Part shown: positions 46,648 through 51,066 of the stretch, piece after piece
Layout of the letters: the number at the start of each line of letters is the position of its first letter
How positions within the stretch are numbered: the first letter of the stretch is position 1
Assembly: GCA_039930045.1 (NCBI GenBank)
Contig: JBDSQB010000001.1
Coordinates: 1 to 51,066, forward strand
Source of the DNA: Chthoniobacterales bacterium
GTDB taxonomy: Bacteria; Verrucomicrobiota; Verrucomicrobiia; Chthoniobacterales; DASVRZ01
Direction of reading: 5' to 3'
DNA length: 51,066 nucleotides
Translations under genes and position numbers: made by a program
The notes under the pieces: model-generated
What the model was told of the DNA's origin: nothing
What the model saw: the letters and a program-made list of their open reading frames with translations, nothing else
Databases searched by the model: none

Positions 46648-48324
46648 GTGAATCCGATCTGGCACCCGTGCAACCCACCCGAGCTCGCCGCCGCGCGGAC
46701 GCTGGCGCAGGCACTCGGACTGCCCGCCGCGCTCGCGCCGCTCCTCTGCCGTCACGCCCTCTCGGATGCGAATCTGGCCTCGGCTTTCCTGCATCCGCGT
46801 CTGAAATCTTTGTCCGATCCGCTGCTTTTGCCCGACATGGAAAAGGCGGTGGCGCGCATTTTCCAAGCCATCGATGCCGGAGAAAAAATCGCGCTTTACG
46901 GCGACTACGATGTCGATGGTGTGACGTCGCTCACGATGCTCCGGCGGATGCTCGCCGAGTATGGAAACGCCGCCGCCTGCTTTCTGCCGCATCGCGTCGA
47001 TGAGGGCTACGGGCTCTCCGCCGATGGCATCACACGCTGCCTCGCCGAGCACGCGCCGGGGCTGCTCATCGCGGTCGATTGCGGCACGAGTTCGGCCCGG
47101 GAAATTTCTGATCTGACTTCCAATGGAATCGACGTCATCGTGCTCGATCACCACGAATGCGGCGGCGAATGGCCCGTCTGCGCGGCAGTGGTGAACCCGA
47201 AGCGGGGAAATGAATTTGGCTACCTTTGCAGCGGCGGGCTTGCCTTCAAGCTCTGCCACGCGCTCCTGAAAACGCGCCCTCTGCCGGACTTCGACTTGAA
47301 GTCGTTTCTCGATCTGGCCGCGCTCGCGACGGTCGCCGATCTCGTGCCGCTGATCGGCGAAAACCGGCTGCTCGTGCGTCACGGCCTCACGCGAATGCAA
47401 AACACGAGCTGGGCCGGACTGCGCGCTTTAATCGAAGTCTCCGGGGTGAGTTTTCCGCTGAATGCGTCCGACATTGGATTCCGACTCGGGCCTCGCCTGA
47501 ACGCGGCCGGTCGACTCGGTACCGCGCAGGCCGCACTGGATTTGCTTTCGACCGATGATCCCGCTGAAGCCCGAATGTTAGCCGCGGAATTGCACGCGCA
47601 GAACGCCGAGCGCCAAACCATCGAAAAACACACTCACCAGAGTGCGATGGAACTCGTCTCTGCGCCGGAAGCGCCCGCGATTGTCGTCGGTGCGCGCGGC
47701 TGGACGCCCGGAGTCGTCGGCATCGTGGCGGCGCGGCTGGCGCGACATTTTCACCGGCCCAGCGTCGTCATTGCCTTCGACGAAAACGGCGTCGGCAAAG
47801 GCAGCGGACGCAGCATCAGCGGAGTTTCATTGGTCTCTGCGCTAGAAAAATGTGCGCCGTGGCTGGAGAAATTTGGCGGCCACGAAATGGCGGCGGGATT
47901 GACGATTTTAGAATCGAATCTAACTCGATTCACCGCCGAGTTTGAGGCAGCGGTGGCGATGTTAGTCGATCCGGAAAACTTGCATCCGAAACTGCATCTC
48001 GACTGCGAGCTAACCCTGGCCGAAATCAACGACGCGCTGTGGGACGCGCAGAATCATTTCGAGCCCTTTGGCATGGCGAATCCGCGCCCGACGTATTGGG
48101 TGCGGAAAGTGAATCCTGCGCGTGAACCGGTCGTGATGAAGGAGAAGCACTTGCGGATGTTTTTGGCGGATCGCAGGACGCAAATGGCCGCGGTCTTTTT
48201 CGGCGGAGCCGCCGCACCGCTCCCGCCGCCGCCGTGGGATGTGGCGTTTCATTTGGAGACGAACACCTATCGCGGCGAGACTTCGCTGCAACTCCAGATC
48301 ACGCATCTGCGGACGTCATGTTAA
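46648..48324 (+). CDS. recJ: Single-stranded-DNA-specific exonuclease RecJ
   Basis: 558 residues from GTG 46648; a TTG at 46612 in the same frame is less likely. The DHH phosphoesterase motifs are GDYDVDGVTS (Asp86, Asp88, Asp90), VDCGTSS and LDHHEC (Asp167, His168, His169), followed by ARPRLNAAGR-like FRLGPRLNAAGRLG, the DHHA1 block SGRSISGVSL / GGHEMAAG, and the OB-like end FGMANPRPTYW. RecJ digests single strands 5' to 3' in recombination and mismatch repair. The stop overlaps the recG start by 7 bases, so the two repair genes are translationally coupled. Confidence 0.93.
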   Translation: MNPIWHPCNPPELAAARTLAQALGLPAALAPLLCRHALSDANLASAFLHPRLKSLSDPLLLPDMEKAVARIFQAIDAGEKIALYGDYDVDGVTSLTMLRRMLAEYGNAAACFLPHRVDEGYGLSADGITRCLAEHAPGLLIAVDCGTSSAREISDLTSNGIDVIVLDHHECGGEWPVCAAVVNPKRGNEFGYLCSGGLAFKLCHALLKTRPLPDFDLKSFLDLAALATVADLVPLIGENRLLVRHGLTRMQNTSWAGLRALIEVSGVSFPLNASDIGFRLGPRLNAAGRLGTAQAALDLLSTDDPAEARMLAAELHAQNAERQTIEKHTHQSAMELVSAPEAPAIVVGARGWTPGVVGIVAARLARHFHRPSVVIAFDENGVGKGSGRSISGVSLVSALEKCAPWLEKFGGHEMAAGLTILESNLTRFTAEFEAAVAMLVDPENLHPKLHLDCELTLAEINDALWDAQNHFEPFGMANPRPTYWVRKVNPAREPVVMKEKHLRMFLADRRTQMAAVFFGGAAAPLPPPPWDVAFHLETNTYRGETSLQLQITHLRTSC

Positions 48325-50942
48325 CATTTGAAACGCCGCTCGCCGAGGTCGTCCTTCCGCCGCAGTTGAAGCTCCTCGCCCGGCTGGGGCTACTAACTGT
48401 CGGCGACGTGCTTTCGCATTACCCGAAGCGTCATGAGGATCGCACCCGCTTCGACCAGTTTCCCAATCAGGAAATGGAGAAGCCGGTCTGCATTTGCGGA
48501 TTGGTTAGGAAGACGAATCTGCGGCGATTTGGCGGTTACAAAAAGATGTTCGACGCCGTGATCGAGGCGCCGGACGGAGCGATTCTGTCGAGTCCCATCA
48601 CGCTGCGCTGGTTTAACCTGCACTACGTCCAAAAGATGATCGCCGTGGGCCAGCGCGTGGTCGTTTTTGGCAGGCCGCGAGTTAGAGGGAAATCGCTCTG
48701 CATCGAACATCCGGAGTTTGAAATCATTGAGGATGATGCCGATGCGTCGCTCAATCTGGAGCGCATCGTGCCCATTTATCCGGCAACGGAAGGGATGACG
48801 CAGCGGGCGATTCGCAAGCTGGTCGATTCGCTTCTAACTCGACTGGAGCCGCTGCCCGACTGGCTGCCGGCGGGCCTGAGCGACACCGGACGCGACCGCG
48901 CGCTGCGCAACATCCATTTTCCACCCGATGCGGAGGCGCTGGAGGAGGCTCGGCGGCATCTCGTGCTGACGGAGTTTTTCGGGTTGCAGTTGCAGGTGGC
49001 GCGGCGGCGGTCGCAGACACATGCTTTGCCCGGCGAGGCGCATTGTGGCTCGGGGAAATTGCTCGCGCGCTTGCTCCAGGCGCTGCCGTTTCCGCTAACG
49101 GGTGCGCAGGAGCGGGTGATTGGCGAGATTCGCGCCGACCTGGCCGCGCCGCATCCGATGAACCGCTTGTTGCAAGGCGATGTCGGCTCGGGGAAAACGT
49201 TCGTCGCGCTGGCGGCGATCCTGCTCGCAGTCGAGGCGGGTTTTCAGACTGCGCTGATGGCTCCGACGCAGATTCTGGCGGAGCAGCATTATTTGAATTT
49301 CACAAGGTTGCTGGAGCCGCTGGGGGTTCACGTTGCCCTCCGCACCGGCAGCCGGAAAGAGGATAACGAGACACTCCCGCTGTTTGATGGAGCGCCATCC
49401 TCCGGGAGCGCACGCGTCTCGCGTGTTGATTTAGACGTCTCGTCTAAATCCGAGATTGGCTACCGATTTACCCGCCGACGCCTGCCTCATTACGAGCGTC
49501 CTTACGGCATTTACGCGGTCACCTTCGCCACCCATGAACGTGAGACGCTTTCTCCGGAGGAACGCAATCTGGTCTTCGACGCCGTCATCCATTTCCACAA
49601 CAAACGCTACGAACTTTTCGCCGCCTGTGTGATGCCGGATCATGTCCATTTACTGCTGGAGCCTTTCGTCAAAGACCGACTGGAAAATGGGAATCTCGTC
49701 TTCTATTCACTGGCCGAGATCACCCATTCCATCAAGTCATTCACTGCGCATCAGATGAACGCCATCACAGAACGGAAGGGGCCCGTCTGGCAGAAGGAAT
49801 CGTTTGACCGGCTGATGCGAACGGATCGCGAGGCCGAGGAGAAGTTTCATTACATTCTAAAAAATCCGGTTCGGGCTGGAGTCGTATCGCAGGAGGAGGA
49901 TTACCCGTGGCGCTGGACGCAGGAAGCCCTTTCGCGAGACGCAAAAGGGAACACGCGAGACGCGTGCGCTCCCGTGCCGCATCTGTTCATCGGGACGCAC
50001 GCCTTGCTCTACGATTCCGTGGAATTTTCGAATCTCGGCCTCGTGGTGATCGATGAGCAGCACAAATTCGGCGTGATGCAGCGGGCGAAACTCATCTCGC
50101 GTCGACCCACTCCCGATGTGCTTGTGATGACGGCGACGCCCATTCCGCGCACGCTGACGATGACAGCTTATGGCGATCTCGATGTTTCCATTTTGGATGA
50201 GTTACCACCGGGCCGGGGTCGCATTAAAACGGAACTCCGCGAGGAGGGCGCGCTGAAAGACCCGGCCAAGTTTAAGTCGTATCTGGCAGCGGGGAATCAG
50301 GCTTACGTGGTCTGTCCCCTGATCGACGAGGGCGAAAAAACCGACGCCAAGGCCGCGACCCAGGAATACGAAAAATGGTCCGCTTTTCTCGCGCCTCTGA
50401 AGTGTGAATTGCTCCATGGCCGCATTCCGCCGGAGGAAAAAGACGCGATCATGCGCCGGTTTCGGTCGAATGAAACTCAAGTCTTGGTCGCCACGACGGT
50501 AATCGAAGTTGGCATCGACGTGCCCAACGCGACGGTGATGATTATTGAGGATGCGGAGAAGTTCGGGCTGGCGCAATTGCATCAGTTGCGCGGGCGCATT
50601 GGGCGCGGGGCGAAAACGTCGTTTTGCATTTTGCTGACGCGCACGAAAGACCCGGCGGCTCTGGAGAAACTCCGCACGCTGGCGGCTACGACGGACGGGT
50701 TCGCCATCGCCGAGGCCGATCTGAATCTGCGCGGGCCGGGCGATATTCTGGGCACGGCCCAGAGTGGTTTGCCGCCGTTGAAGATCGGCAACATCCTCCA
50801 CGACCGCGACCTCATGCTCCTCGCTCGCCAGAAAGCAATGGAACTCGTCTCTGCCGATCCGGAGCTGGCCCGGCCCGAGAATATTCGCCTCCGCGCGTTG
50901 GTGATAAATCCCACGCAACAGACGTTCTCGCACGTGTCGTAA
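48318..50942 (+). CDS. recG: RecG DNA helicase carrying an in-frame RAYT transposase domain
   Basis: 874 residues against about 690 for RecG. The wedge/OB domain comes first (LTVGDVLSHYPKRHEDRT). Walker A is QGDVGSGKT (Lys293), motif Ia APTQILAEQH, motif II IDEQHKFG (Asp579), motif III MTATPIPRTL, and motifs V-VI ATTVIEVGIDVPNA and HQLRGRIGRG. Between residues about 359 and 553, in the loop after LPLFDGA and before HLFIGTHALL, a whole REP-associated tyrosine transposase is inserted without breaking the frame: MPDHVHLLLEP (His442, His444) and HYILKNPVRAGV (Tyr512). RecG remodels stalled forks. Whether this chimera still unwinds DNA is unclear. It overlaps recJ by 7 bases. Confidence 0.88.
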   Translation: MLTFETPLAEVVLPPQLKLLARLGLLTVGDVLSHYPKRHEDRTRFDQFPNQEMEKPVCICGLVRKTNLRRFGGYKKMFDAVIEAPDGAILSSPITLRWFNLHYVQKMIAVGQRVVVFGRPRVRGKSLCIEHPEFEIIEDDADASLNLERIVPIYPATEGMTQRAIRKLVDSLLTRLEPLPDWLPAGLSDTGRDRALRNIHFPPDAEALEEARRHLVLTEFFGLQLQVARRRSQTHALPGEAHCGSGKLLARLLQALPFPLTGAQERVIGEIRADLAAPHPMNRLLQGDVGSGKTFVALAAILLAVEAGFQTALMAPTQILAEQHYLNFTRLLEPLGVHVALRTGSRKEDNETLPLFDGAPSSGSARVSRVDLDVSSKSEIGYRFTRRRLPHYERPYGIYAVTFATHERETLSPEERNLVFDAVIHFHNKRYELFAACVMPDHVHLLLEPFVKDRLENGNLVFYSLAEITHSIKSFTAHQMNAITERKGPVWQKESFDRLMRTDREAEEKFHYILKNPVRAGVVSQEEDYPWRWTQEALSRDAKGNTRDACAPVPHLFIGTHALLYDSVEFSNLGLVVIDEQHKFGVMQRAKLISRRPTPDVLVMTATPIPRTLTMTAYGDLDVSILDELPPGRGRIKTELREEGALKDPAKFKSYLAAGNQAYVVCPLIDEGEKTDAKAATQEYEKWSAFLAPLKCELLHGRIPPEEKDAIMRRFRSNETQVLVATTVIEVGIDVPNATVMIIEDAEKFGLAQLHQLRGRIGRGAKTSFCILLTRTKDPAALEKLRTLAATTDGFAIAEADLNLRGPGDILGTAQSGLPPLKIGNILHDRDLMLLARQKAMELVSADPELARPENIRLRALVINPTQQTFSHVS
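49403..49427 (+). repeat. REP-type inverted repeat, left copy
   Basis: CGGGAGCGCACGCGTCTCGC followed by GTGTT; exact reverse complement of 49950-49974. Read in frame it encodes SGSARVSRV of the RecG chimera. Confidence 0.85.
49950..49974 (-). repeat. REP-type inverted repeat, right copy
   Basis: Exact reverse complement of the left copy. The 21 bases just before it (49929-49949) are themselves the reverse complement of 50989-51009 in the element downstream of recG. Confidence 0.85.
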
Positions 50943-50963
50943 GCGCGAGGGTCCGCCATTCCC

Positions 50964-51066
50964 CGGGAGCGCACGCGTCTCGCGTGTTCCCTTTTGCGTC
51001 TCGCGAAAGAGCTCGTCCCAGCCATCGGACGAGACGTCCGCTGGAACACGCGAGACGCGTGCGCTC
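50964..51066. repeat. BIME-like repeat downstream of recG, cut by window end
   Basis: It begins 21 bases after the recG stop with the same CGGGAGCGCACGCGTCTCGC sequence as the RAYT border, contains a GGACG...CGTCC hairpin region, and ends in the reverse complement of the border (51045-51066, truncated). It is a pair of REP palindromes in inverted orientation and the presumed substrate of the RAYT in recG. Confidence 0.82.

Follow-up and report, generated by a model that had tools for sequence, protein, structure and literature searches.

RAYTs, or TnpA-REP transposases, have been described as genes that stand alone, occur in single copy and are inherited vertically, and domestication is the standard picture of them (PMC8049555). 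A survey of the superfamily in 2018 threw out proteins that were longer than expected, taking them for fusions or errors of annotation (PMC6006769). Rickettsia palindromic elements (RPE) and intragenic REPs are known examples of palindromes that lie in frame within functional genes; such insertions also occur in DNA-repair genes and in the verrucomicrobium O. terrae (PMC3733652). Those insertions comprise roughly 20–80 residues of REP sequence and carry no transposase, whereas the locus described here has a complete transposase embedded in a host protein. Such embedding bears on the question of what lets RAYTs and REPIN populations last for very long times. Inteins offer a second comparison, as they too are inserted in frame at sites in conserved housekeeping genes, with sporadic presence and alternative alleles per site, and they have characteristic splice-junction residues. 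WHO/HO-type yeast elements, which turn over at a conserved host gene, provide an analogy to the RAYT turnover reported below; being eukaryotic and endonuclease-based, they are not homologous to the embedded RAYTs. They have been presented as an unorthodox homing element family (PMC7282813).

The window, meaning the whole 51,066-nucleotide stretch of DNA that was analysed, belongs to a Chthoniobacterales bacterium (Verrucomicrobiota) and carries a gene for the repair helicase RecG. In the open reading frame analysis, the recG frame runs from an ATG at 48318 to the stop at 50942 with no internal stop, and is made up as follows:

48318–50942, plus strand: recG with an in-frame RAYT insert, an 874-residue chimera and the sole recG of the genome.
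48318–49403, plus strand: N-terminal part of RecG, with the wedge domain, motif I (GDVGSGKT), motif Ia (APTQILAEQH) and a loop ending in LPLFDGAPSS.
49404–49973, plus strand: REP-to-REP unit, a putative mobile cassette of 570 nt or 190 codons, free of stops.
49404–49427, plus strand: 5′ REP, GGGAGCGCACGCGTCTCGCGTGTT, translated in frame as GSARVSRV and lying within the 40-nt inverted arm 49403–49442.
49464–49916, plus strand: RAYT catalytic domain, with HUH (DHVH), Tyr and Asn (FHYILKNP) and a fold matching 4er8.
49950–49973, minus strand: 3′ REP, an inverted copy of GGGAGCGCACGCGTCTCGCGTGTT, translated in frame as NTRDACAP and lying within the arm 49935–49974.
49974–50942, plus strand: C-terminal part of RecG, with motifs Ib (GTHALL), II (DEQH) and III (TATPIPRT), the helicase C domain and RecG domain 3.
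50965–51066, no strand: REPIN (inverted REP pair) of the same REP family as the recG insert, just 3′ of the recG stop, with the contig end inside it.

The first-pass annotation of this DNA had proposed that a complete RAYT sits in frame within RecG, and this is confirmed by the open frame together with a family model and motifs. The NCBIfam model REP_Tyr_transpos (NF047646) matches residues 391–531 of the chimera at 87.4 bits against a cut-off of 80, and the HUH motif DHVH is present along with the Tyr and conserved Asn of FHYILKNP, so that the transposase does appear intact, as had been claimed. The claim that the helicase motifs are intact on both sides with the frame preserved also holds, as every RecG motif of the chimera is in place and RecG equivalog models from NCBIfam match both flanks of the insert. 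A unit bounded by inverted repeats is indeed there, but it measures 570 nt instead of 572, and its exactly inverted ends are 24 nt long instead of 25 and sit in 40-nt arms of 85% complementarity. The proposed placement between motifs Ia and II is correct and can be narrowed to the interval between Ia and Ib. The REP 22-mer occurs three times in the window against none expected (100 shuffles), and the cognate REP hairpin of the window's RAYT is GGGAGCGCACGCGTCTCGCGTG. The hairpin of the REPIN at 50965–51066, which begins 22 bp past the recG stop and is cut by the contig end, has a predicted energy of −47.2 kcal/mol as DNA (z −9.2).

For the RAYT domain alone the predicted model reached a pLDDT of 88.5, and its top match among solved structures was 4er8, the E. 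coli TnpA-REP with bound REP hairpin (Z 14.7 over 133 residues, 2.8 Å). The AlphaFold model of the chimera had a mean pLDDT of 75.3 and kept the RecG fold (Z 34.8 over 606 residues against 1gm5), with low confidence at the REP-encoded stretches 350–395 and 536–552, which is consistent with these serving as linkers that carry the RAYT. The element thus shares with the described systems of RAYTs, REPs and REPINs (REPtrons) its HUH/Tyr family, its REP flanks, a single cognate REP family present as REPINs and a 4er8-like predicted fold. Unlike REPtron RAYTs, it lies inside housekeeping proteins as a domain that lacks a start and is replaced at fixed sites, and it has no ORF of its own with a start and a stop.

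The genome to which the window belongs (3.52 Mb in 23 contigs, 99.88% complete) contains no second recG, the only other strong match being Mfd. An intact copy elsewhere, which the first-pass annotation had named as grounds for dismissing the chimera, was therefore not found. The window's REP has 81 genomic copies at up to two mismatches, many of them as inverted pairs about 80 bp apart. There are three other RAYT matches in the genome, two of them full-length and the third a fragment. REPs of the window type were not found near the two full-length RAYTs, and the fragment has one weak match. Because the other full-length RAYTs lack such REPs nearby, the RAYT inside recG is likely the mobiliser of the genome's matching REP family, to judge from sequence. 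The same family reaches a second housekeeping gene, in that metH of this genome (L014; G000:C3, about 213138–216161) holds an in-frame REPIN, GSARVSRVLAGVSPGSSENVSGETPETARETRALP, in the linker where other genomes hold a full RAYT. This palindromic insert without a transposase is of the intragenic REP/RPE kind, which the recG insert is not.

The first-pass annotation had implied that the arrangement is rare, and had suggested comparing the RecG of relatives for strain specificity. Neither rarity nor strain specificity was found: the arrangement recurs across the class and is shared by many genomes. With the chimera as query, we recovered four further chimeras of RecG and RAYT, all intact, from two other families and with REPs that differ; other matches were RAYTs in frame within alaS, thrS and metH. 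The next query was a profile (A1) of the RAYT domain alone, without host sequence, so the resulting list of host genes is unbiased. The pooled set has 117 rows and 116 distinct members, the window's element having been entered twice (L002 and L007; recG accordingly has 42 rows). The distinct members fall in alaS (46), recG (41), metH (14), thrS (7), priA (1) and carB (1), with six standing alone; about 110 of the 116 are in frame within host genes, and the RecG loop is occupied by a RAYT in about 41 genomes. The main host products are RecG, alanyl-tRNA synthetase, threonyl-tRNA synthetase and methionine synthase. An even sample of the class gave 43 matches in 35 of 384 genomes. None of the 43 had a frame shorter than 698 aa, and one (in alaS) lies on a single-contig 4.7-Mb genome. 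Frames shorter than 698 aa were likewise absent among the eight matches from a sample of the phylum. The remaining NF047646 RAYTs of the same genomes, taken as a control, are mostly in frames of 148–435 aa. One carrier of the embedded type has been cultured, Ereboglobus sp. PH5-10, in which this RAYT is on the alaS contig. Because relatives show the same arrangement, both a strain-specific insertion and an assembly join are ruled out. HUH and Tyr are kept in 113 of the 117 pooled rows. Four embedded RAYTs (L133, L140, L112, L165) are short of one catalytic residue, the first His or the Tyr, and have an intact host frame.

Several observations bear on how the insert is expressed. In measurable chimera pairs, RAYT dN/dS is mostly 0.03–0.15, a range like that of the host flanks, and both the RecG flanks and the RAYT part are under purifying selection. 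Together with the RecG fold kept in the AlphaFold model, this supports the earlier suggestion that the RAYT is tolerated as a loop domain. A 5′ REP could be recognised in 81 elements. Six of these have an ATG in frame in the stretch from that REP to the RAYT motif, and in four the stretch has a start of any kind with an SD-like motif. With few exceptions, the 5′ REP lies in the frame that encodes Gly-Ser-(Ala/Thr), which avoids the TAG in GGGTAGC. Unit length is a multiple of three in 53 of 76 cases and leaves a remainder of one or two in some clades, so that in those cases a change in the flank had to make up for the shift; a cassette that is frame-neutral in every clade is thereby ruled out.

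Occupancy of these sites turns over. On a host tree of RecG without the insert, made by a quick method without bootstrap, the 11 rows with RAYT clade A need 11 changes (8 forced by starred branches), the 14 rows with clade B need 12, and the scattered empty sites need 9 (6 forced). Clades A and B have different REPs and are scattered among the closest RecG relatives. Replacement can be seen in individual pairs, with L101 and L113 at a distance of 0.05 in RecG against 1.37 in the RAYT, and L240 and L241 at 0.12 in AlaRS against 2.67. A clade-A element lies within the remnant of a clade-B REP in L099, and in L270 the RAYT has been lost in frame, leaving a REP footprint as a scar. Host and RAYT distances are nevertheless correlated overall (Mantel p 0.001 for recG and 0.004 for alaS), so the history combines replacement with vertical descent. 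The mark of a domesticated transposase would be that it is stably inherited in one and the same host context, which is not what is seen, although some vertical signal remains. In a comparison inside one genus, genomes with clade A in recG have 69, 112 and 79 type-A REPs, against 0–3 in four genomes whose recG is empty, scarred or holds clade B; a genome with clade B in recG has 52 type-B-like REPs, and the clade-A genomes also have 21–46 of these.

We consider the locus to be, quite probably, a stop-free RAYT/REP cassette, normally start-less, that is translated as a domain of essential proteins and persists by being embedded there. An autonomous REP-RAYT element, open from REP to REP in one frame and normally without a start or stop of its own, would have inserted itself in frame into a loop on the RecG surface, and would be made as an internal domain on REP-encoded linkers. 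Low dN/dS, the scarcity of internal starts and the lack of an intein domain or intron make a single long RecG-RAYT product the simplest reading of the sequence, and RecG activity is presumably retained in it, to judge from selection and the single gene copy. Its intact catalytic residues and the pairing of REP with RAYT suggest that the embedded transposase may still spread its cognate REP/REPIN family. The element would persist by sitting in conserved housekeeping genes, where deleting it out of frame would mean giving up the host gene, presumably to the element's advantage. Individual copies meanwhile come and go in these permissive loops or give way to others, as the turnover described above shows. 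Against the cassette reading we count that part of the history is vertical and that the units of some clades are not a multiple of 3 nt.

The strongest rival, though an unlikely one, is that cassettes insert anywhere and that selection leaves only the in-frame copies in permissive loops, with no advantage to the element. Random insertion with purifying filtering could produce an enrichment in the loops of conserved genes, and RAYT-less REPINs are also found in frame in metH, the window's genome included. The insertion point varies by several residues inside the RecG loop, and no exact sequence-specific target was found, the spacer before the REP being variable, which argues for a loop that is merely tolerated rather than a preferred target. 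However, random insertion predicts mostly intergenic copies, and stand-alone elements make up just 6 of about 116 distinct members, with 108 of the rest in four genes.

It is much less probable that the RAYT is a domesticated functional fusion, recruited to aid its host protein, for example as a single-stranded DNA endonuclease tethered to RecG. RecG does process DNA, and the conserved RAYT part is itself subject to purifying selection. However, sister recGs hold RAYTs of different clades or none, REP abundance tracks the RAYT clade, and the same family is found in AlaRS, ThrRS, MetH and CarB. Its presence in these hosts and in PriA also leaves a helicase-linked transposase acting at forks, as the first-pass annotation had envisaged, without support; the common factor is therefore the conserved housekeeping gene and not fork biology, and a fork-specific role was rejected.

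Equally improbable, in our estimate, is a splicing element, removed either as protein in the manner of an intein or as RNA in the manner of an intron or IStron to leave a plain RecG. The distribution is intein-like, with in-frame inserts at recurring sites of conserved genes and unrelated alleles that replace one another, and the long inverted arms could pair in the mRNA. Against this, no insert interrupts the reading frame, and intein splice-junction residues are missing from the REP ends. Pfam scans of four chimeras or inserts showed no intein or Hint domain at E 0.001–0.01, and no Rfam intron family matched 48200–51066 at E up to 0.1. The sole Rfam match in the region, Ysr141, scored 23 bits where the gathering score is 196 and was set aside as chance. 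An assembly artefact or pseudogene hardly needs considering: most of the genomes are metagenome assemblies and the window's contig ends in a REP, but the arrangement recurs in many independent assemblies, one of them single-contig, with low dN/dS and intact frames, and this recurrence refutes it.

Returning to the embedded cassette, there is perhaps an even chance that these elements form an intein-like mobile class that does not splice, i.e., a start-less, stop-free HUH cassette that is expressed only within essential proteins, re-invades the same loops and drives a REPIN population. Unlike inteins, they showed no Hint domain or splice junctions, carry an HUH transposase in place of a homing endonuclease and insert at a point that is not exact to the residue. 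Intragenic REPs were already known, and intragenic RAYTs are apparently unreported, as we found no earlier report of RAYTs embedded in host proteins in the largely open-access literature that was searched. A RAYT lineage is entrenched in alaS, recG, metH and thrS, where simple deletion would harm the host gene, and yet it turns over at fixed loops; this combination makes persistence by embedding testable. The essential enzymes of many bacteria hold a nuclease domain of about 190 residues that surveys tend to drop as fusions, and the embedded RAYTs mark natural sites that tolerate large domains.

Beyond this lineage, a second, more divergent type of RAYT was seen in frame in several genomes, in tsaC (L198, L199, L208), valS (L197, L207) and carB (L195), with host labels kept only where a family scan had checked them, as the initial labels were contaminated by RAYT residues. 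Two alaS genes (L194 and L247) each contain two separate in-frame RAYTs at two sites; a metH (L151) and a further alaS (L184) have a similar double appearance but are cut by contig ends. In L202 (G103:C330), a unit of the divergent type is duplicated in near-identical tandem within one open frame.
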